This document shows, in pieces, positions 44,017-62,868 of a stretch of DNA of 64,000 nt. A program made the translations under genes and the position numbers. Origin of the DNA: a virus; IMG/VR virus record IMGVR_UViG_3300028025_002828, positions 1 through 64,000 of that record; one strand, given 5' to 3'. The notes beneath the pieces are model-generated. The model was not told where the DNA came from, searched no databases, and was given only the letters and a program-made list of their open reading frames with translations. Numbering within the stretch: position 1 is the stretch's first letter; each line of letters opens with the position of its first letter.

Positions 44017-44078
44017 CCCTTTTTTGAGTAGGGTTATGTAAAATAGTGCTTTACTTTAATTCATCTTTCATGTATAAT
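44013..44078 (+). promoter_or_regulatory. Inverted repeat plus sigma-70-type promoter
   Basis: ATAACCCT (44013-44020) / AGGGTTAT (44030-44037) flanks a T-run, then TTTACT (44050-44055), 17 bp, TATAAT (44073-44078). The -35 context GTGCTTTACTTTAATTCA is repeated almost identically at 50309, 53390 and 58229. Confidence 0.8.
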
Positions 44079-56958: not shown

Positions 56959-57427
56959 TGCATTTATGGACACTGCGGAGAGATTCGCAGAGTTGAGTTC
57001 TGCTGTCCGACTGAAGGTAGGTGCGGTAGTTGTTCAAGAAAATCGTATCATCTCGATTGGCTACAATGGTATGCCTTCTGGATGGACAAACGAATGTGAA
57101 AATAAGATTTATGTTGATGCAACATTAGAAGAATCAATGTTATATCAGAGCAAGGTAGATGTCTACCTTGATGTAAATAAAAAATTATATGAATTAAAAA
57201 CAAAAGATGAGGTTATTCATGCTGAAGCAAATGCTATATCGAAACTGGCACGTGATGGTGAGCGAGCAGCTGGTGCCACAATGTTTTGTACTCACGCACC
57301 TTGCATCCAATGCGCTAAAATCATTTACGGTGCTGGTATAAATACATTCTACTATCGTTCTCAATATCGAGACAATGACGGATTGGAGTTTTTAAAGAAA
57401 TGCAATATTCAGGTAGAGCAATGTTAA
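56939..57427 (+). CDS. dCMP deaminase
   Basis: 162 residues from ATG 56939 (AAGGA 9 nt upstream; ATG at 56933 is the alternative). Zinc motif HAEANAI (94-100) and PCIQC (121-125) with an insert between GYNGMPSGWTNEC and the active site as in T4 Cd. It converts dCMP to dUMP to feed ThyX. Overlaps the desaturase by 7 nt. Confidence 0.93.
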   Translation: MKQKWIDAFMDTAERFAELSSAVRLKVGAVVVQENRIISIGYNGMPSGWTNECENKIYVDATLEESMLYQSKVDVYLDVNKKLYELKTKDEVIHAEANAISKLARDGERAAGATMFCTHAPCIQCAKIIYGAGINTFYYRSQYRDNDGLEFLKKCNIQVEQC

Positions 57428-58170
57428 TGTTGGCAGTGCGGACTAGTCTTAGTCTAGCATGTCATGTGTTTGTCATAATGATGCTGGTGTCAGCAGGTGT
57501 TTCATTTACTGCAGTTTTAATTGCCATCCCAATGATTTTAGTTGGTGGCTTTGCTGTCACAGGATTTTTACATAGATCTATTGCTCATAGAACATACACA
57601 ATCACCAAAGGGTGGTTAAGGAAAACGCTACTGTTCTCCTCGTTGTTCAGTTTAATCGGAACACCACTAGGATGGGCGATAGTGCATAGAATGCATCACA
57701 GAAATCTAGATGGACCAGGAGATCCTCACAGTCCATGGCAGATAGGATTCTTTAGAAGTTACTGTCACTTGTGGCAACTCGATGAGAAGACAGTTGATCT
57801 TGGTGGGTGTCGAGATATCATAACCAACCGAGAGTTGTTGTTTTTCCACAAACACTGGTTGAAGATAACTCTTGTAATTTGGTTGACTTTTTATATGATA
57901 TGGGGTATGATAGGTCTATATGCGATAGGGTTAGCTGGTGTGTTTGCTTTCCATGCCTTTGGTGTTGCGAATGCGGTATGTCATTACGGAAGAGCAAGTG
58001 GTGATATCGTAGACCTACCTAAAATGAGTTGGCTAAACTTCGGTGAGAACTTTCATAGTTACCATCACAGTTTTCCTAGTGCGTATAGATTTACTGCAAC
58101 AAAATCAGACCCATCGGCAACTATCATTGAGTGGTTGATGAAAAATAATTTAGCAGTAGTTCGAAAGTGA
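57421..58170 (+). CDS. Membrane fatty-acid desaturase (second copy)
   Basis: 249 residues from ATG 57421 (AGGTAG upstream; ATG 57400 possible). Several hydrophobic segments and three His boxes: HRSIAH, HRMHH and HSYHH, with GDPHSPW after the second box as in acyl-CoA desaturases. More like bacterial delta-9 desaturases than the copy at 34815. It may keep the host membrane fluid or change it during infection. Confidence 0.88.
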   Translation: MLMLAVRTSLSLACHVFVIMMLVSAGVSFTAVLIAIPMILVGGFAVTGFLHRSIAHRTYTITKGWLRKTLLFSSLFSLIGTPLGWAIVHRMHHRNLDGPGDPHSPWQIGFFRSYCHLWQLDEKTVDLGGCRDIITNRELLFFHKHWLKITLVIWLTFYMIWGMIGLYAIGLAGVFAFHAFGVANAVCHYGRASGDIVDLPKMSWLNFGENFHSYHHSFPSAYRFTATKSDPSATIIEWLMKNNLAVVRK

Positions 58171-58231: not shown

Positions 58232-58260
58232 TTTACTTTAAATCAAAAAAGGTTTATACT
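58232..58260 (+). promoter_or_regulatory. Promoter of the leader RNA and tRNA operon
   Basis: TTTACT (58232-58237), 17 bp, TATACT (58255-58260). Transcription would start near 58267, at the first base of the attenuator-like RNA. Confidence 0.8.
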
Positions 58261-58266
58261 TCTTTT

Positions 58267-58440
58267 ATGTTAAATTTTTCAATATCCTGTCAGAAACATC
58301 TACCACTCTTTAGTGGATGGACGATCTCACGCACAGGCTATGCGATTGAAAATAACGTGAGGGTTCGGCAAGTAAATTAACTGACACACCAGTTTACTTA
58401 CCCAACCCTCTAAGATGAAAGTCTAGAGGGTTTTTTGTTT
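58267..58440 (+). ncRNA. Attenuator-like structured RNA at the head of the tRNA operon
   Basis: The 3' end is a textbook terminator: AACCCTCTA (58404-58412) / TAGAGGGTT (58424-58432) plus T6. The left arm AACCCTC can instead pair with GAGGGTT at 58359-58365, enclosing a hairpin AAGTA..AACTG / CAGTTTACTT (58370-58399). That antiterminator in turn overlaps CTCACG / CGTGAG (58326-58331, 58356-58361). An upstream CCACT/AGTGG hairpin (58303-58316) completes it. Such mutually exclusive helices are the architecture of riboswitches and attenuators. The alternative is a short stable RNA with a multi-helix body. The ligand or trigger is unknown. Confidence 0.65.
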
Positions 58441-58490: not shown

Positions 58491-58564
58491 TCCCTGATAG
58501 TGTAGCGGTAACACAGTTGACTTTGACTCAACTATCGCAGGTTCGAATCCTGCTCGGGGTGCCA
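58491..58564 (+). tRNA. tRNA-Gln (TTG)
   Basis: Anticodon stem GTTGA/TCAAC with loop CTTTGAC; encoded CCA. Acceptor TCCCTGA/TCGGGGT has a U1-U72 mismatch, with weak pair 1-72 as in other tRNA-Gln. First of the cluster. Confidence 0.9.
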
Positions 58565-58568
58565 AAAT

Positions 58569-58642
58569 GGGGGTGAAACTTTAAGGTGAAGTAACTGGCT
58601 TTTAACCAGTAAAACTCGGATCGTTCCCGAGCACCCCTACCA
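58569..58642 (+). tRNA. tRNA-Lys (TTT)
   Basis: Loop CTTTTAA between ACTGG/CCAGT; acceptor GGGGGTG/CACCCC T with A73 and CCA. Confidence 0.9.
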
Positions 58643-58655
58643 AGAATTCTTTGGT

Positions 58656-58729
58656 GTGACCATAACTTAATGGTAAAGTCGTGGATTGTGATTCCGCTTA
58701 TCTGGGTTCAATTCCCAGTGGTCACCCCA
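58656..58729 (+). tRNA. tRNA-His (GTG)
   Basis: Loop TTGTGAT between GTGGA/TCCGC; acceptor GTGACCA/TGGTCAC, discriminator C73, CCA. The base at position -1 in the gene is T, not the G-1 usual in bacterial tRNA-His. Confidence 0.88.
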
Positions 58730-58738
58730 AAGAATTTT

Positions 58739-58813
58739 AGTGATATAGCAAAGTGGTAATGCGCTTCCTTCATACGGAAGTTACCGTAGGTTCGAATCCT
58801 ACTATCACTACCA
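58739..58813 (+). tRNA. tRNA with CAT anticodon (Met elongator or Ile2)
   Basis: Loop TTCATAC between CTTCC/GGAAG; acceptor AGTGATA/TATCACT, A73, CCA. D-stem has C11-G24 (elongator type). Could be tRNA-Ile read as lysidine-AU; identity cannot be settled by eye. Confidence 0.88.
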
Positions 58814-58818
58814 ACATC

Positions 58819-58893
58819 GGGCTGTTAGTATACGGGGTATTATTCCTGCCTTGCACGTAGGAGAAAAGGGTTCGAGTCCCTTACGGTCCACCA
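58819..58893 (+). tRNA. tRNA-Ala (TGC)
   Basis: Loop CTTGCAC; acceptor GGGCTGT/ACGGTCC with the G3-U70 pair that marks alanine tRNAs; A73, CCA. Confidence 0.9.
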
Positions 58894-58898
58894 GTTAT

Positions 58899-58974
58899 TA
58901 CCGTGTAGCTCAATTGGCAGAGCTCTGGTCTCCAAAACCAGCGGTTGGCGGTTCAACTCCGTTCACGGTAGCCA
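58899..58974 (+). tRNA. tRNA-Trp (CCA)
   Basis: Loop CTCCAAA between CTGGT/ACCAG; acceptor TACCGTG/CACGGTA, G73, CCA. Confidence 0.9.
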
Positions 58975-58980
58975 GATTAT

Positions 58981-59072
58981 GGAAGATGATGCAGGTGCGT
59001 TGGTGCGCCGACCAGCCTTGAAAACTGGGTTCTCAGAAATGGGATGGGGTTCGACTCCTCCGTCTTCCGCCA
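58981..59072 (+). tRNA. tRNA-Ser (TGA)
   Basis: Loop CTTGAAA; acceptor GGAAGAT/GTCTTCC, G73, CCA; long variable arm (class II), total 92 nt. Confidence 0.9.
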
Positions 59073-59081
59073 AAATTATGT

Positions 59082-59156
59082 GCCTCGTTAACTCAGTGGT
59101 AGAGTGTCTCTTTTACACGGAGAAGGTCGGCAGTTCGAATCTGTCACGAGGTACCA
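59082..59156 (+). tRNA. tRNA-Val (TAC)
   Basis: Loop TTTACAC; acceptor GCCTCGT/ACGAGGT, A73, CCA. Confidence 0.9.
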
Positions 59157-59163
59157 AAATTTT

Positions 59164-59239
59164 ACCGAGGTAGCTCAGTTGGTAGAGCACTTGTTTGAAG
59201 CACAAGGTGTGGGCGGTTCGATCCCGTCTCTCGGTACCA
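59164..59239 (+). tRNA. tRNA-Phe (GAA)
   Basis: Loop TTGAAGC between CTTGT/ACAAG; acceptor ACCGAGG/TCTCGGT, A73, CCA. Confidence 0.92.
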
Positions 59240-59247
59240 AAAGTTAT

Positions 59248-59322
59248 TGCCGTGTAGCTCAGAGGAAGAGCAATCGCTTGATAAGCGATAGGTCGACATT
59301 TCAAAATTGTCCATGGCAACCA
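59248..59322 (+). tRNA. tRNA-Ile (GAT)
   Basis: Loop TTGATAA between ATCGC/GCGAT; acceptor TGCCGTG/CATGGCA, A73, CCA. T-loop is TTCAAAA. Confidence 0.88.
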
Positions 59323-59327
59323 GTTAT

Positions 59328-59404
59328 ATCCCAATGGCGCAATTGGTAGACGCACCTCTCTCAAAAGGAGGGTGTTGAGAGTTCGAGTCTCTCTTGGGAT
59401 ACCA
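59328..59404 (+). tRNA. tRNA-Leu (CAA), short variable loop
   Basis: Loop CTCAAAA between CCTCT/GGAGG; acceptor ATCCCAA/TTGGGAT, A73, CCA. Variable region is only 5 nt (GTGTT), whereas bacterial tRNA-Leu normally has a long arm. Confidence 0.85.
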
Positions 59405-59409
59405 GATTT

Positions 59410-59485
59410 ACCTCATTAGTAAAATGGAAGATTACACTGTGCTACGAACGCAGGGGTGGAGGTTCGATTCCTTCATGAGGTGCCA
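59410..59485 (+). tRNA. tRNA-Arg (ACG)
   Basis: Loop CTACGAA between CTGTG/CGCAG; acceptor ACCTCAT/ATGAGGT, G73, CCA. A34 would need host TadA to become inosine. Confidence 0.9.
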
Positions 59486-59491
59486 GAGTTA

Positions 59492-59581
59492 GGAAGATGG
59501 GCAGGACGGTAATGCAGCAGTTTGCTAAACTGTAGATTCACGGAAGTGGGTCATAGGGTTCGATTCCCTAATCTTCCACCA
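59492..59581 (+). tRNA. tRNA-Ser (GCT)
   Basis: Loop TTGCTAA; acceptor GGAAGAT/ATCTTCC, A73, CCA; class II long variable arm, 90 nt. Confidence 0.9.
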
Positions 59582-59582
59582 G

Positions 59583-59611
59583 TTGACATTAAATATGAAG
59601 TGAGTTATGAT
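59583..59611 (+). promoter_or_regulatory. Promoter inside the tRNA cluster
   Basis: TTGACA (59583-59588), 17 bp, TATGAT (59606-59611); start expected at about 59618-59620, immediately before the next tRNA. Confidence 0.75.
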
Positions 59612-59620
59612 AGTAATAGA

Positions 59621-59697
59621 GCGGATGTGACGGAATTGGTATACGTATCAGACTTAAAATCTGAGTTCTGTGGGTTCGACTCCCACCATCCGCACCA
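59621..59697 (+). tRNA. tRNA-Leu (TAA), short variable loop
   Basis: Loop CTTAAAA between TCAGA/TCTGA; acceptor GCGGATG/CATCCGC, A73, CCA. Variable region only 5 nt (GTTCT). Confidence 0.88.
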
Positions 59698-59704
59698 AAG
59701 ATAG

Positions 59705-59779
59705 GGGCTGGTAGCTTAATGGTAAAGCAGTGAACTCATAATTCATTGAGTCCTGGTTCAATTCCAGGTCAGCCCACCA
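59705..59779 (+). tRNA. tRNA with CAT anticodon (Met elongator or Ile2)
   Basis: Loop CTCATAA between GTGAA/TTCAT; acceptor GGGCTGG/TCAGCCC, A73, CCA. C11-G24 elongator-type D stem. Confidence 0.9.
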
Positions 59780-59796
59780 AACAGAAAGGATAGGAA

Positions 59797-60360
59797 ATGA
59801 ATGTTCTAGCACTAGACCAAAGTGGAATGCCACGGAAGTGGATAAATTTTGAAGATGCTGTTACATATCAAGCAAAGGGTATGGTAAATTGGTCACTTGG
59901 CGAAACGATTAAAGTGTTTCGTGGTGGTCACAATGATCAAGGAATTCAATCAGTAATTAGCATACCATCTATCATCGCTGTTCGTGGGTCTTCATTGAAG
60001 ATGAGTGGTAAAGTTATTTTGACAAACAAATCTCTATTCAGTAGAGATAGAAATCTTTGCGCATACTGTGGTGATACATTTTCATTGTCGCATCTTTCGC
60101 GTGATCATGTTATGCCAAAGTGTGAGGGTGGTAGAGATGTATGGACAAATGTTGTTACTGCGTGTAAACCTTGTAACATAAAGAAGGGTCGTAAGATCTT
60201 AGAGACTACTACTATGAAACTTCTCTATGTTCCGTATGAGCCGAATCATTTTGAAAACATGATTCTGATGAATAGAAATATTCTTGCTGATCAGATGGAA
60301 TATTTGATGTCGGGTGTTCCGAAAAATAGTAGAGTACGAAAAGATGTGGGTGTGCACTGA
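59797..60360 (+). CDS. HNH endonuclease
   Basis: 187 residues. RNLCAYCGDTFSLSHLSRDH is the zinc/HNH start, VMPKCEGGRDVWTNVVTACK the Asn-His core, and CKPCNIKKG the second zinc pair. N-terminal LALDQSGMPRKWINFEDAV matches a free-standing HNH family of bacteria and phages. It sits within the tRNA cluster, and its last 15 nt form the 5' acceptor strand of tRNA-Cys. It may be a mobile or homing-type gene; no intron is visible. Confidence 0.88.
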   Translation: MNVLALDQSGMPRKWINFEDAVTYQAKGMVNWSLGETIKVFRGGHNDQGIQSVISIPSIIAVRGSSLKMSGKVILTNKSLFSRDRNLCAYCGDTFSLSHLSRDHVMPKCEGGRDVWTNVVTACKPCNIKKGRKILETTTMKLLYVPYEPNHFENMILMNRNILADQMEYLMSGVPKNSRVRKDVGVH

Positions 60361-60421
60361 ATGGTTAGGTAGCTGATTGCAAATCAGTTTAATGCAGGTT
60401 CGAGTCCTGTCACCCACTCCA
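60346..60421 (+). tRNA. tRNA-Cys (GCA), overlapping the HNH gene
   Basis: Loop TTGCAAA; acceptor GTGGGTG/CACCCAC, discriminator U73 (Cys identity), CCA. The first 15 nt are the HNH stop region. Confidence 0.9.
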
Positions 60422-60428
60422 AAGGTTT

Positions 60429-60493
60429 AACCCTACTCACTGTAGGGGCTTCCAAAGATAATGTTTGACATTAAATAGAGGTTCATGTATAAT
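60429..60493 (+). promoter_or_regulatory. Hairpin plus promoter of the large structured RNA
   Basis: CCCTAC/GTAGGG hairpin (60431-60447), then TTGACA (60465-60470), 17 bp, TATAAT (60488-60493). Start expected near 60500. Confidence 0.85.
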
Positions 60494-60499
60494 TACTAT

Positions 60500-61208
60500 A
60501 TTGAGTTGAAAATGCTTGATGATGTGAAAATAAACACCACTTGGCGACCACTGAGGAACAGTGGTAAAACCAAAGACCCATGCCAACATGGGTCCACCGA
60601 GTGTAAGACAGAGGGATCGGATCCCCGAGGTCGCCAGTTGAAAAATTGCTGGCAAATGTTCTTTAAAAAGGTATGCGGTTTCGTGATTGTCTGCCACGTC
60701 GGGAGACGTTAAAACAATCACACTTTGCACGATTCGTCTATCGGTTAGGACACATGGTTTTCATCCATGTAAGAGCGGTTCGACTCCGCTATCGTGTACC
60801 AGATTTAATTGCATTGGGTTGCCAAGCCAGTAGGTGATCTAGGAGAGGATAACCAATCGACGGATTGGCTCTCGCTAGGTTACATGAAAGATGGAAACGA
60901 AGTGGAGTTCTACAGGGATGTAGAATGATGAAGCGGATACGGTGGTCACGCTGGAACAACTTGAATTGTAATGTGAGAAAGCAGCCAATCGTAGGACGGC
61001 TACGTGGGCATCCGAGAACTCGGGATGCTGCTGATCATCCCAGTGTAATTAAATGTGGTATTAGTTTAGTGTTATCAAGGTATCGTCATAAGACGTTATG
61101 ACTACTCGACAGTTAGGGTGCGACTGAAACTGTCTGATATAACTGCTATTCGCTTGTCAGTGCTAGCTACATTGTTGACAAATAGGCAGATAACACTAAA
61201 CTAATATC
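60500..61208 (+). ncRNA. Large multi-domain structured RNA with embedded tRNA-Glu
   Basis: Driven by its own consensus promoter. Domain A: TGGCGACC (60542-60549) / GGTCGCCA (60629-60636) closing hairpins CCACTG/CAGTGG (loop AGGAA), GACCCATG/CATGGGTC (CCAA loop) and GGGAT/ATCCC. A further GTGATTGT/ACAATCAC arm (60683-60690, 60714-60721) is capped by ACGTC-GGGA-GACGT, a GNRA loop. tRNA-Glu follows. Domain B: a 16-bp helix (60803-60818 with 61039-61054, two G-U pairs) closes an arm 60834-60883, TTCTACA-GGGA-TGTAGAA (60908-60925), CGTAG/CTACG and GCATCC/GGATGC. Domain C: a 20-bp helix (61057-61076 with 61189-61208) closes three hairpins. Domains abut with 1-2 nt spacers. No long reading frame with a ribosome site fits. 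Size, ornament and tRNA context recall GOLLD/ROOL-type RNAs. Confidence 0.82.
60727..60801 (+). tRNA. tRNA-Glu (TTC), inside the large RNA
   Basis: Loop TTTTCAT between CATGG/CCATG; acceptor GCACGAT/ATCGTGT, A73, CCA. Flanked directly by helices of the large structured RNA. Confidence 0.9.
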
Positions 61209-61210
61209 AT

Positions 61211-61302
61211 GCGTGAACGGTAACGATGGTGGTGTTGCAGCAGACTGTAAATCTGTTCCCTCTGGGTAAACAATGGTGGTTCGAATCCATCTTCACGCAC
61301 CA
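61211..61302 (+). tRNA. tRNA-Tyr (GTA)
   Basis: Loop CTGTAAA between GCAGA/TCTGT; long variable arm; acceptor GCGTGAA/TTCACGC, A73, CCA. Starts 2 nt after the large RNA's last helix. Confidence 0.9.
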
Positions 61303-61309
61303 AATGTTA

Positions 61310-61384
61310 GGCTCGTTCGTATAATGGTCATTACGTCGGATTGTCTATCCGATCATGGGAGTTCGATTCTCCCACGAGTCGCCA
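61310..61384 (+). tRNA. tRNA-Asp (GTC)
   Basis: Loop TTGTCTA between TCGGA/TCCGA; acceptor GGCTCGT/ACGAGTC, G73, CCA. Confidence 0.92.
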
Positions 61385-61393
61385 AGTTTTTAT

Positions 61394-61467
61394 AGCGGAT
61401 TAGAGAAATGGTATCTCAGCAGTCTCATACGCTGCAGTTGGTGGTTCGACTCCATCATCCGCAACCA
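61394..61467 (+). tRNA. tRNA-fMet-like initiator (CAT)
   Basis: Loop CTCATAC between GCAGT/GCTGC. Initiator features: 1-72 is an A-A mismatch, D stem has A11-U24, and the 3' end CGCAACCA equals that of E. coli tRNA-fMet. It lacks the three G-C pairs of the initiator anticodon stem, so the assignment is likely but not certain. Confidence 0.8.
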
Positions 61468-61475
61468 GTTAGTCA

Positions 61476-61549
61476 GCCCTATTAGTATAATGGTATTACA
61501 CCTGTTTTGTAATCAGGTTACGGCAGTTCGATTCTGTCATGGGGCACCA
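61476..61549 (+). tRNA. tRNA-Thr (TGT)
   Basis: Loop TTTGTAA between CCTGT/TCAGG (U31-U39 mismatch); acceptor GCCCTAT/ATGGGGC, A73, CCA. Confidence 0.88.
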
Positions 61550-61583
61550 TTCGTTTGTTTTGATTTTTAGTATAGGAAAGAAA

Positions 61584-62156
61584 ATGGAAAAAGTTACACT
61601 TCGTAAAGCAAATGCAATTCAAGGCGAGATCCGTAGATTGATCGCAAGTAAAAATGCTAGTGAATCAATTAGCATCACGGAATTCACTGCAGATGTTGCA
61701 GAAGTTCTTGAGAAAGCAATGGATAATTTTGCTGTTGATGTTACACGTAAGGTAGCATTAAACACAGCATTGTATAACATTCGTAAGAGTGTTTCTCGGG
61801 CAAATGCCACTTCTGGCATCAGCGATCTACTTGCTGATATTGAGTTGATCGATGCAACTATGGCAATCTACAGTGGCATTAGCACTAAAGAAGTAGCTAA
61901 GTCTTTGACTGAGATTAATGCACGTGTTGAGAAAGTTAAAGCAGCACCAGCAGAAACACGTATGTATGGTCGTTACGATAATGTTGAAACATCTGTTGTT
62001 GAACAGAGCACTATCGACATTGCCAAAGATACAGTTAAAAAATTAAAACGTGAGAAGCAAAATGCTTCTGACAAACTATTGACGTTGAATGTCAATACAA
62101 CAATTGACATCTCTGATGTCGATGCGATGGTTTTGAAAGTAGAAGGTATTATTTAA
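61584..62156 (+). CDS. Conserved phage protein of unknown function
   Basis: 190 residues from ATG 61584 (AGGAAAG upstream). Helical: KVTLRKANAIQGEIRRLIAS and VTRKVALNTALYNIRKSVSR; beta-type end DKLLTLNVNTTIDISDVDAM. A protein with this start (VTLRKAN.IQ) is known to me from several phages without function. It interrupts the tRNA cluster between tRNA-Thr and a structured RNA; RNA binding is a speculation. Confidence 0.7.
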   Translation: MEKVTLRKANAIQGEIRRLIASKNASESISITEFTADVAEVLEKAMDNFAVDVTRKVALNTALYNIRKSVSRANATSGISDLLADIELIDATMAIYSGISTKEVAKSLTEINARVEKVKAAPAETRMYGRYDNVETSVVEQSTIDIAKDTVKKLKREKQNASDKLLTLNVNTTIDISDVDAMVLKVEGII

Positions 62157-62161
62157 GTTTT

Positions 62162-62403
62162 GAGGGACAATGCGTAGAGGATAGGGAATAGAGCAAAAAA
62201 CTAATACTTAAAAGTATTGGCTTTGGTCTTGAAAACCAACTCCTGACAAATTCGTCCAACCTTGTTGTTGCTCCACGATACACTAGACTGTTATAGTCGC
62301 TGCTTATTGCTTCGTGTTGTATAACTCTTGTGGGCTGTCCATTGCATATTGCACACTGCAAATTGCTTTGCGACTATTCGCTTGAATTGAAACATTGTTC
62401 CTC
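62162..62403 (+). ncRNA. Second structured RNA in the tRNA cluster
   Basis: Closed by an 11-bp helix, GAGGGACAATG (62162-62172) with CATTGTTCCTC (62393-62403), one G-U pair. Inside are GAGCAA (62191-62196) / TTGCTC (62268-62273) enclosing AATACT/AGTATT (62203-62218) and TTGGT-CTTGAAA-ACCAA (62223-62239), a 7-nt loop that looks like a TGA anticodon arm; and ATAGTCGC (62293-62300) / GCGACTAT (62370-62377). No coding frame. Begins just after the 62156 stop and ends 9 nt before tRNA-Leu. Confidence 0.68.
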
Positions 62404-62412
62404 ACCCTGTTA

Positions 62413-62489
62413 GCCCCGATGACGGAATTGGTATACGTGTTGGTCTTAGAAGCCAAATTTTGAGAGTTCGAGTCTCTCTTGGGGCACCA
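62413..62489 (+). tRNA. tRNA-Leu (TAG), short variable loop
   Basis: Loop CTTAGAA between TTGGT/GCCAA; acceptor GCCCCGA/TTGGGGC, A73, CCA. Variable region 5 nt (ATTTT). Confidence 0.88.
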
Positions 62490-62496
62490 ATTTTAT

Positions 62497-62572
62497 TCCG
62501 CAGTAGCTCAGTCGGTAGAGTAGATGACTGTTAATCATTTGGTCGGTGGTTCGAGCCCACCCTGTGGAGCCA
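62497..62572 (+). tRNA. tRNA-Asn (GTT)
   Basis: Loop CTGTTAA between GATGA/TCATT; acceptor TCCGCAG/CTGTGGA, G73, CCA. Confidence 0.9.
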
Positions 62573-62580
62573 ATTTTAAT

Positions 62581-62659
62581 CCGAGTGTAGGATAGTCTGG
62601 TTCATTCCGCTTGCTTTGGGAGCAAGATGTCGCAGGTTCGAATCCTGCCACTCGGACCA
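62581..62659 (+). tRNA. tRNA-Pro (TGG)
   Basis: Loop TTTGGGA between CTTGC/GCAAG; acceptor CCGAGTG/CACTCGG, A73, CCA. Confidence 0.9.
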
Positions 62660-62674
62660 TGCAATTTAATAAAC

Positions 62675-62703
62675 TTTACAATTTAGTTTTAGAAGAATAT
62701 AAT
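62675..62703 (+). promoter_or_regulatory. Promoter of the last two tRNAs
   Basis: TTTACA (62675-62680), 17 bp, TATAAT (62698-62703); start expected near 62710, at the tRNA-Gly gene. Confidence 0.8.
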
Positions 62704-62712
62704 AGAATTATC

Positions 62713-62786
62713 GCAGGATTAGTTTAATGGTAAAATGTCTTCCTTCCAAGTAGATGTCATCAGTTCGATTCTGATATCCTGCTCCA
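62713..62786 (+). tRNA. tRNA-Gly (TCC)
   Basis: Loop CTTCCAA between TCTTC/GTAGA (one mismatch); acceptor GCAGGAT/ATCCTGC, U73, CCA. Confidence 0.88.
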
Positions 62787-62793
62787 TTAACAT

Positions 62794-62868
62794 ACGGCAT
62801 TCGTTCAACGGATAGGACATGGTTCTTCTAAAGCCAGAATGGTGGTTCGATTCCTCCATGCCGTACCA
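62794..62868 (+). tRNA. tRNA-Arg (TCT)
   Basis: Loop CTTCTAA between TGGTT/AGCCA; acceptor ACGGCAT/ATGCCGT, A73, CCA. Last tRNA of the cluster. Confidence 0.9.

Follow-up and report, generated by a model that had tools for sequence, protein, structure and literature searches.

The tRNA operon of an uncultured phage is preceded by what we take, with a probability of about 0.83, to be a trp-type ribosome-mediated attenuator, the leader peptide of which would act as a checklist of aminoacyl-tRNAs, a shortage of almost any of them turning the operon on. The window, i.e., the whole stretch of DNA analysed, comprises 64,000 of the 71,292 bases of a virus record (IMG/VR IMGVR_UViG_3300028025_002828) and encodes a T4-like DNA polymerase that is 53–54% identical to cyanophage polymerases. 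Directly upstream of the tRNA operon, positions 57400–58170 hold a phage-borne gene which we presume to be fatty acid desaturase-like. The elements between this gene and the tRNAs are listed in Table 1, together with those of the tRNA cluster. The first-pass annotation had described the region 58267–58440 as a riboswitch-like attenuator; the leader ORF, which covers the upstream half of this region and overlaps the antiterminator, was absent from it.

Table 1. Features of the attenuator and the tRNA operon (window coordinates)
Feature	Position	Strand	Remarks
Sigma-70-like promoter TTTACT-17-TATACT	58232..58260	+	-10 ends 6 nt before leader ATG
Leader ORF MLNFSISCQKHLPLFSGWTISRTGYAIENNVRVRQVN (then stop)	58267..58380	+	37 codons; all amino acids except Asp (19); 23 of 24 decoding classes
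Antiterminator 5' arm	58359..58377	+	Within leader ORF
Antiterminator 3' arm	58392..58410	+	Last part, AACCCTC (58404-58410), doubles as terminator left arm
Intrinsic terminator AACCCTC...GAGGGTTTTTT	58404..58436	+	
Third helix CTCACG/CGTGAG	58326..58361	+	Intact in 2 of 102 leaders only
BoxA-like GTTCATTAAAA	58461..58471	+	Behind the terminator, ahead of the first tRNA; 1 mismatch to GYTCTTTAANA
tRNA-Gln(UUG)	58491..58564	+	First gene of the tRNA operon
tRNA cluster	58491..62868	+	25 ARAGORN tRNAs covering all 20 amino acids
BoxA-like GTTCTTTAAAA	60658..60668	+	Exact match, before tRNA-Glu; paired likewise in L002
Internal promoter TTGACA-17-TATAAT	60465..60493	+	Inside tRNA cluster, outside attenuator control

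The anatomy of the locus is that of a trp-type attenuator: a short ORF lies between the promoter and a terminator ahead of the genes to be regulated, and the stop codon of this ORF falls inside the antiterminator helix. AACCCTC at 58404–58410 can pair either with GAGGGTT at 58359–58365, as part of the antiterminator, or with GAGGGTT at 58426–58432, which is followed by a T run and completes the terminator. The left arm common to the terminator and an upstream complement had already been recognized in the first-pass annotation, and we confirmed both at the same positions. Terminator and antiterminator, sharing this strand, are mutually exclusive. The RNA from 58267 to 58410 folded better than all of 200 shuffled sequences (z –4.5), and the RNA from 58267 to 58440 better than 199 of 200 (z –3.0). 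The -10 hexamer of the window is so close to the leader ATG that the mRNA is probably leaderless. Since a -10-like hexamer ends 6 or 7 nt short of the ATG in 80 of the 102 leaders of the family described below, most transcripts should begin at or beside the AUG; Shine-Dalgarno-like sequences are present in 21 of the 102. A repeated cassette, in most places made up of a CCCTAC..GTAGGG-like hairpin with a promoter behind it, is found at 44027, 50299, 53361, 58200, and 60425 of the window and at 69794 of the record.

Two related leader-bearing contigs were reached via the desaturase-like gene. The more distant of the two (74% identity of the desaturase-like protein) has retained antiterminator and terminator with changes on both strands; its third helix is not retained, and its best-conserved stretch lies further upstream. 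In frame, this stretch is a short ORF, encoding MLNFSISCQKHLPLFSGWTISRTGYAIENNVRVRQVN in the window and, for example, MLLRSISMQKHPLPLFSGWTCSRTVSLGYAIENDAEGFGK in relatives. A pattern built from it matched eight contigs with a true relative and gave two chance matches (L087 and L090), and a profile of six peptides then recovered 72 loci; 71 complete ORFs (window included) encode 42 distinct peptides, all containing 19 or 20 amino acids. More distant forms were among the matches listed in a scan with a terminator pattern; such loci were taken if an ORF of 36–46 codons had its end at the antiterminator and included SGW, GYA/GYN, or LPL, and ten further loci were hand-picked by ORF position. L174, L206, L210, and L260 were rejected, the candidate ORF of L206 resembling the tail of a gene and having few distinct residues, and L115 and L137 were dropped because their ORFs are cut. 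From the first pattern scan, in which a motif spanning the third helix and the arm matched 72 contigs, only L013, which also bears L001, was taken up.

The family thus assembled comprises at least 102 distinct leaders from uncultured phages, encoding at least 84 distinct peptides of 32–45 amino acids. A tRNA gene follows in 91 of the 102 leaders, the remaining 11 having just 56–304 nt of downstream DNA, and in the 91 loci the first tRNA is tRNA-Gln (84, as in the window), tRNA-Trp (4), tRNA-Glu (2), or tRNA-His (1). A comparison of leader DNA with 50,697 phage records yielded nothing beyond chance similarity to the promoter part, and searches of phage records with peptides of the family and a hand-written composite likewise gave chance matches only. 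Eight terminator matches in the genome collection were without leader or tRNA operon.

Comparison of the alternative pairing across 72 relatives showed both helices to be conserved and covarying. The alignment covered 72 of 77 distinct 3' parts (L162, L202, L231, L248, and L265 were omitted). The 19 pairs of the antiterminator were 90.3% paired, with seven of them changed on both sides, and the 54 double-changed cells compared with a shuffle mean of 15.5 (reached in none of 500 shuffles); for the nine terminator pairs, 96.0% pairing and 42 double-changed cells were found, as compared to a shuffle mean of 13.6 (0/500). Sliding either helix by one column reduced pairing to 54–67%. Where the ORF ends, GGGTTTGG is conserved at the nucleotide level, yet it is read in two frames, giving ..GFGK or ..GLASR/GLDKK, as expected if it is the RNA and not the peptide that matters there.

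Further upstream, the leaders conserve an inventory rather than a sequence. All 20 amino acids are present in 46 of the 84 peptides, 19 in 36, and 18 in two. If Leu, Ser, Arg, and Ile are split by codon box, so that 24 decoding classes are distinguished, all 24 are represented in 33 peptides, 23 in 44, 22 in three, and 19–21 in four. Proteins encoded on the same contigs served for comparison: among 12,809 of their 40-codon windows, 0.08% reached at least 23 classes and none reached 24. Among 6,188 short ORFs of the examined locus DNA, 24 classes occurred in 36 of 89 leaders versus 0 of 6,099 others, and at least 23 classes in 82 of 89 versus 7 of 6,099; 20 amino acids were found by chance in 12 of the 6,099 non-leader ORFs. 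Counting only the codons before the antiterminator arm (27–38 codons), 76 of 84 peptides still have 23–24 classes. When codons were shuffled within alignment columns, a control which leaves the shared ancestry of the peptides in place, the observed coverage was reached in none of 500 trials (mean 20.9 versus 23.2 classes). All eight split-box classes of Leu, Ser, Arg, and Ile are present in 67 of 84 peptides, as compared to 6.2 expected with random synonymous codons.

Several residues are present at close to one copy per peptide. A single Cys is found in 80 of 84 peptides and two Cys in none, its place being W[TS]C in 45 and another, mostly near the N terminus, in 35; mean copies per peptide are 0.95 for Cys, 0.99 for Trp, 1.02 each for His and Tyr, and 1.06 for Asp, and are likewise near one for both Arg and both Ile classes. 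The order of the core varies by lineage with its residues retained (GYAIEND, GYNAIEDS, GYNAFEIDS, PEINVSYAFDR), and the ORFs differ by in-frame indels. The relation between control codons and product that characterizes trp-type attenuators is present in an altered form, codons of almost every class preceding tRNAs for almost all amino acids, and tandem codons for one amino acid do not occur in the leaders. Val is the main exception to the link between class and tRNA, being absent from 28 of 84 peptides, whereas tRNA-Val(UAC) is encoded in 40 of 40 clusters with at least 20 tRNAs; the window leader has no codon for Asp, and its Val codons are located at the antiterminator arm or within it. The peptide of L231 lacks Trp. 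A match of missing residue to missing tRNA was considered and rejected, as the Val-less peptides have tRNA-Val. Codon choice in the leaders is stereotyped (Phe TTT, 85/85; Glu GAG, 82/89; Tyr TAT, 84/86; Ala GCG, 72/96 of GCG plus GCA) and unlike phage codon usage; a wobble-codon rule gave a mixed outcome and was not upheld, and no simple rule fits.

That the ORF encodes a small functional phage protein which ends by chance in a terminator/antiterminator is very improbable. Its start, its stop, and a core KHLPL..GW..R are conserved, as would suit such a protein, and there is no other coding gene from the promoter to the first tRNA; however, neither PHROGs nor Pfam contains a family for the peptide, its segments are reordered with residues kept, GGGTTTGG falls in two different frames, and conservation extends from the amino acids to the codon classes. 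A better candidate, albeit still an unlikely one, is an attenuator that senses general translation speed or ribosome supply, transit time then reporting the average state and not the shortage of a single tRNA. It would have the same anatomy, and with each class represented about once, sensitivity to a single amino acid should be weak: theory, in the accessible text of PMC1183508, holds that sensitivity drops when regulatory codons make up a small fraction. For such a sensor, however, any 40 codons would do, and neither the full set of 24 classes nor the relocation of Cys would be needed. As to the checklist, strong depletion of one tRNA would still stall the ribosome.

The first-pass annotation had also placed the upstream complement in a third helix, thought to act as an anti-antiterminator, and had assumed a riboswitch with an unrecognized aptamer. 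The third helix (CTCACG, 58326–58331; CGTGAG, 58356–58361) does exist in the window, but is intact only there and in a near-identical sister; moreover, pairing of the antiterminator arm with upstream RNA is lower than after shuffling of the codon order (0.51 versus 0.64), so that a conserved anti-antiterminator is not indicated. For the same reason, a protector helix corresponding to the 1:2 helix of trp was rejected. Upstream protector helices are not required in every ribosome-mediated attenuator. Rfam searches at gathering and relaxed thresholds returned nothing but tRNAs at threshold, and no aptamer or T-box for the leader, where the sub-threshold matches are meaningless. A riboswitch or other aptamer-controlled attenuator would account for the strong alternative folds, but lacks a conserved upstream fold, and the conserved upstream part is instead a reading frame with a codon-class inventory; we give this explanation hardly any credence. 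What stands of the earlier proposal is an attenuator gating the tRNA cluster, which anatomy and covariation support well, and uncharged tRNAs, which it had named as candidate effectors, were close to the mark. The sensor is most likely a translating ribosome.

According to the accessible text of PMC1183508, transcription continues in ribosome-mediated attenuation when regulatory codons are translated slowly, and ends when they are translated rapidly. In the phage leader, RNA polymerase would start at or beside the leader ATG, and a ribosome would follow through about 37 codons. With ample charged tRNAs, the ribosome would reach the stop codon and cover the 5' arm of the antiterminator; the terminator would then fold and the tRNA genes would stay off. 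If any tRNA were short, for instance due to decay of host tRNAs, an anticodon-nuclease defence, or starvation, the ribosome would stall upstream, the antiterminator would form before the 3' arm of the terminator exists, and the tRNA operon would be read. Depletion of host tRNAs by defence nucleases is a plausible cause of such a shortage; phage tRNAs have been proposed to counter tRNA depletion by host defence (eLife 2023, PMC10264068, accessible text).

Thermodynamic predictions for 96 leaders, in which the nucleotides covered by a ribosome were masked, agree with this course of events. Before the 3' arm of the terminator exists, the median predicted probability of the antiterminator was 1.00 with the ribosome absent or stalled at codon 12; with the ribosome at the stop codon, the 5' arm is blocked, and the predicted probabilities were 0.00 for the antiterminator and 1.00 for the terminator. 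For full-length RNAs of the family without ribosome, antiterminator and terminator were predicted to be balanced (0.43 versus 0.60), while the terminator is favoured at equilibrium in the full-length leader of the window (0.98). Antitermination in the window must therefore be kinetic, the choice being made during transcription as in trp. A plain insulating terminator with constant readthrough, or a mere source of a discrete leader RNA, would fit the value of 0.98 and the presence of other promoter-like sites that could serve the cluster, but would leave the covarying antiterminator and the inventory-kept ORF without purpose, and is extremely unlikely. Against the checklist, we also count the Val gap, the Asp gap of the window, the extra promoter-like sites and the terminator-favouring equilibrium of the window, the excess of non-synonymous over synonymous codon changes in close leader pairs (185 versus 98), the unexplained codon stereotypy, and the shared ancestry of the peptides.

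Between the terminator and the first tRNA, 89 of the 91 loci contain a boxA-like element with 0–1 mismatch to the consensus GYTCTTTAANA (as given in the accessible text of PMC5725501), as compared to 22 of 1,820 shuffled segments. This element is a predicted Nus site, at which the polymerase would probably take on Nus factors to cross the untranslated tRNA genes. A second promoter-like sequence is located between the attenuator and the first tRNA in 26 of 91 loci, and the tRNA cluster of the window contains further promoter-like sites at 59583 and 61175 besides that listed in Table 1. Given these extra promoter-like sites behind the attenuator and inside the cluster, the operon probably has several inputs, the attenuator being one of them. 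ARAGORN missed a probable tRNA-Ser(UGA) at 58981–59068, which gave a sub-threshold Rfam match to tRNA-Sec.

A separate version of the arrangement appears to exist in Vibrio phages. In a small search, six tRNA regions of phage isolates were scanned. KVP40 and V05, which are identical here, have an ORF encoding MTHSNTHSDMILRSDFLRSEFVYLANPCAKQEWSPQT 133 nt upstream of the first tRNA, which is the sole short ORF of these two regions to have both a T run and a tRNA at most 450 nt away. By tblastn, the peptide was found in 50 Vibrio phage records. Peptides of 37–38 amino acids from ten Vibrio phages contain 18 (phi-ST2), 19 (eight phages), or 20 (PVA8) different amino acids and 20–22 of the 24 classes; the KVP40-like peptides lack Gly, while those of F86 and K567 contain Gly but no Cys. 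Among 924 windows of 37 amino acids from Vibrio phage proteins, 2.3% contained at least 19 amino acids and none contained 20. The stop codon of the Vibrio leader lies inside a helix GTCC..AGTATA/TATACT..GGAC, which has a strand in common with a terminator GGACGC..GCGTCC plus T run, and masked folds predict the same behaviour as for the metagenome family. The layout, which also occurs in nt-1, is the same, whereas peptide and helices are unrelated to those of the window family. As the helix is nearly invariant, it affords no covariation test, and the case for a Vibrio attenuator rests on position, architecture, and conservation. The tRNA regions of T4, T5, phiKZ, Serratia phage X20, and Salmonella phage SB18 yielded no such leader by the scan used; X20 has one short ORF with 20 amino acids, on the far side of its tRNAs. 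Both versions considered, it is likely that an OR-gate sensor of the whole tRNA pool has arisen in phages, apparently more than once: a minimal leader peptide containing all or nearly all twenty amino acids and every split codon box, in which a stall at any codon would switch on a complete tRNA set.

The trpL, hisL, thrL, and ilv leaders of enteric bacteria likewise combine a short ORF with an antiterminator which has sequence in common with both the end of this ORF and the left arm of the terminator, and their stop codons are likewise placed such that a ribosome there blocks the antiterminator. In contrast to these leaders, with a run of codons for few amino acids, the phage leaders offer about one codon for nearly every tRNA, precede a tRNA operon instead of biosynthesis genes, have a mostly leaderless start, and lack a conserved protector helix. 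T-box riboswitches antiterminate when charged tRNA is lacking; the response to the uncharged state would be alike, but in the phage leaders the ribosome would be the reader. In arrest peptides such as TnaC and SecM, the leader peptide has a conserved core, as it has here; in the phage leaders, however, the C-terminal part is the least conserved. Antitermination of rRNA operons by boxA and Nus factors also involves a boxA-like element ahead of untranslated stable-RNA genes, which in the phages follows an attenuator and belongs to a tRNA operon. The machinery of attenuation is known, whereas the universal input and the tRNA operon as target are new: in searches of an open-access library, with closed papers outside their scope, neither a leader peptide for all amino acids nor an attenuator of a phage tRNA operon came up.

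The purpose of phage-borne tRNAs has been under debate for decades. If the proposed checklist is true, the leaders would be direct genetic evidence that loss of tRNA is the signal, and the question could be tested one amino acid at a time; the attenuator would have a universal input, would naturally report how the tRNA pool stands, and would allow the phage to respond on demand to decay of host tRNAs and to defences that destroy tRNAs. Since the cultured phages nt-1 (on Vibrio natriegens) and KVP40 have a version, tests are possible without metagenome material.

Some further elements of the tRNA region may be noted. An element of about 110 nt (60540–60650), with a GGCGACC/GGTCGCC closing stem and hairpins, lies downstream of a perfect promoter match (60465) and upstream of the boxA-like site and tRNA-Glu; it gave only a sub-threshold match to RAGATH-20. 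Between tRNA-Glu and tRNA-Tyr, positions 60802–61170 form a long, conserved-looking non-coding stretch (containing AGTAGGTGATCTAGGAGAGGATAACCAATCGACGGATTGG) without Rfam match, and a very similar stretch adjoins the leader of L258; it is a candidate structured phage RNA. The leaders of L258 and L200 are shorter (32 amino acids, without Gln), precede tRNA-Glu, and perhaps represent a second attenuator type.
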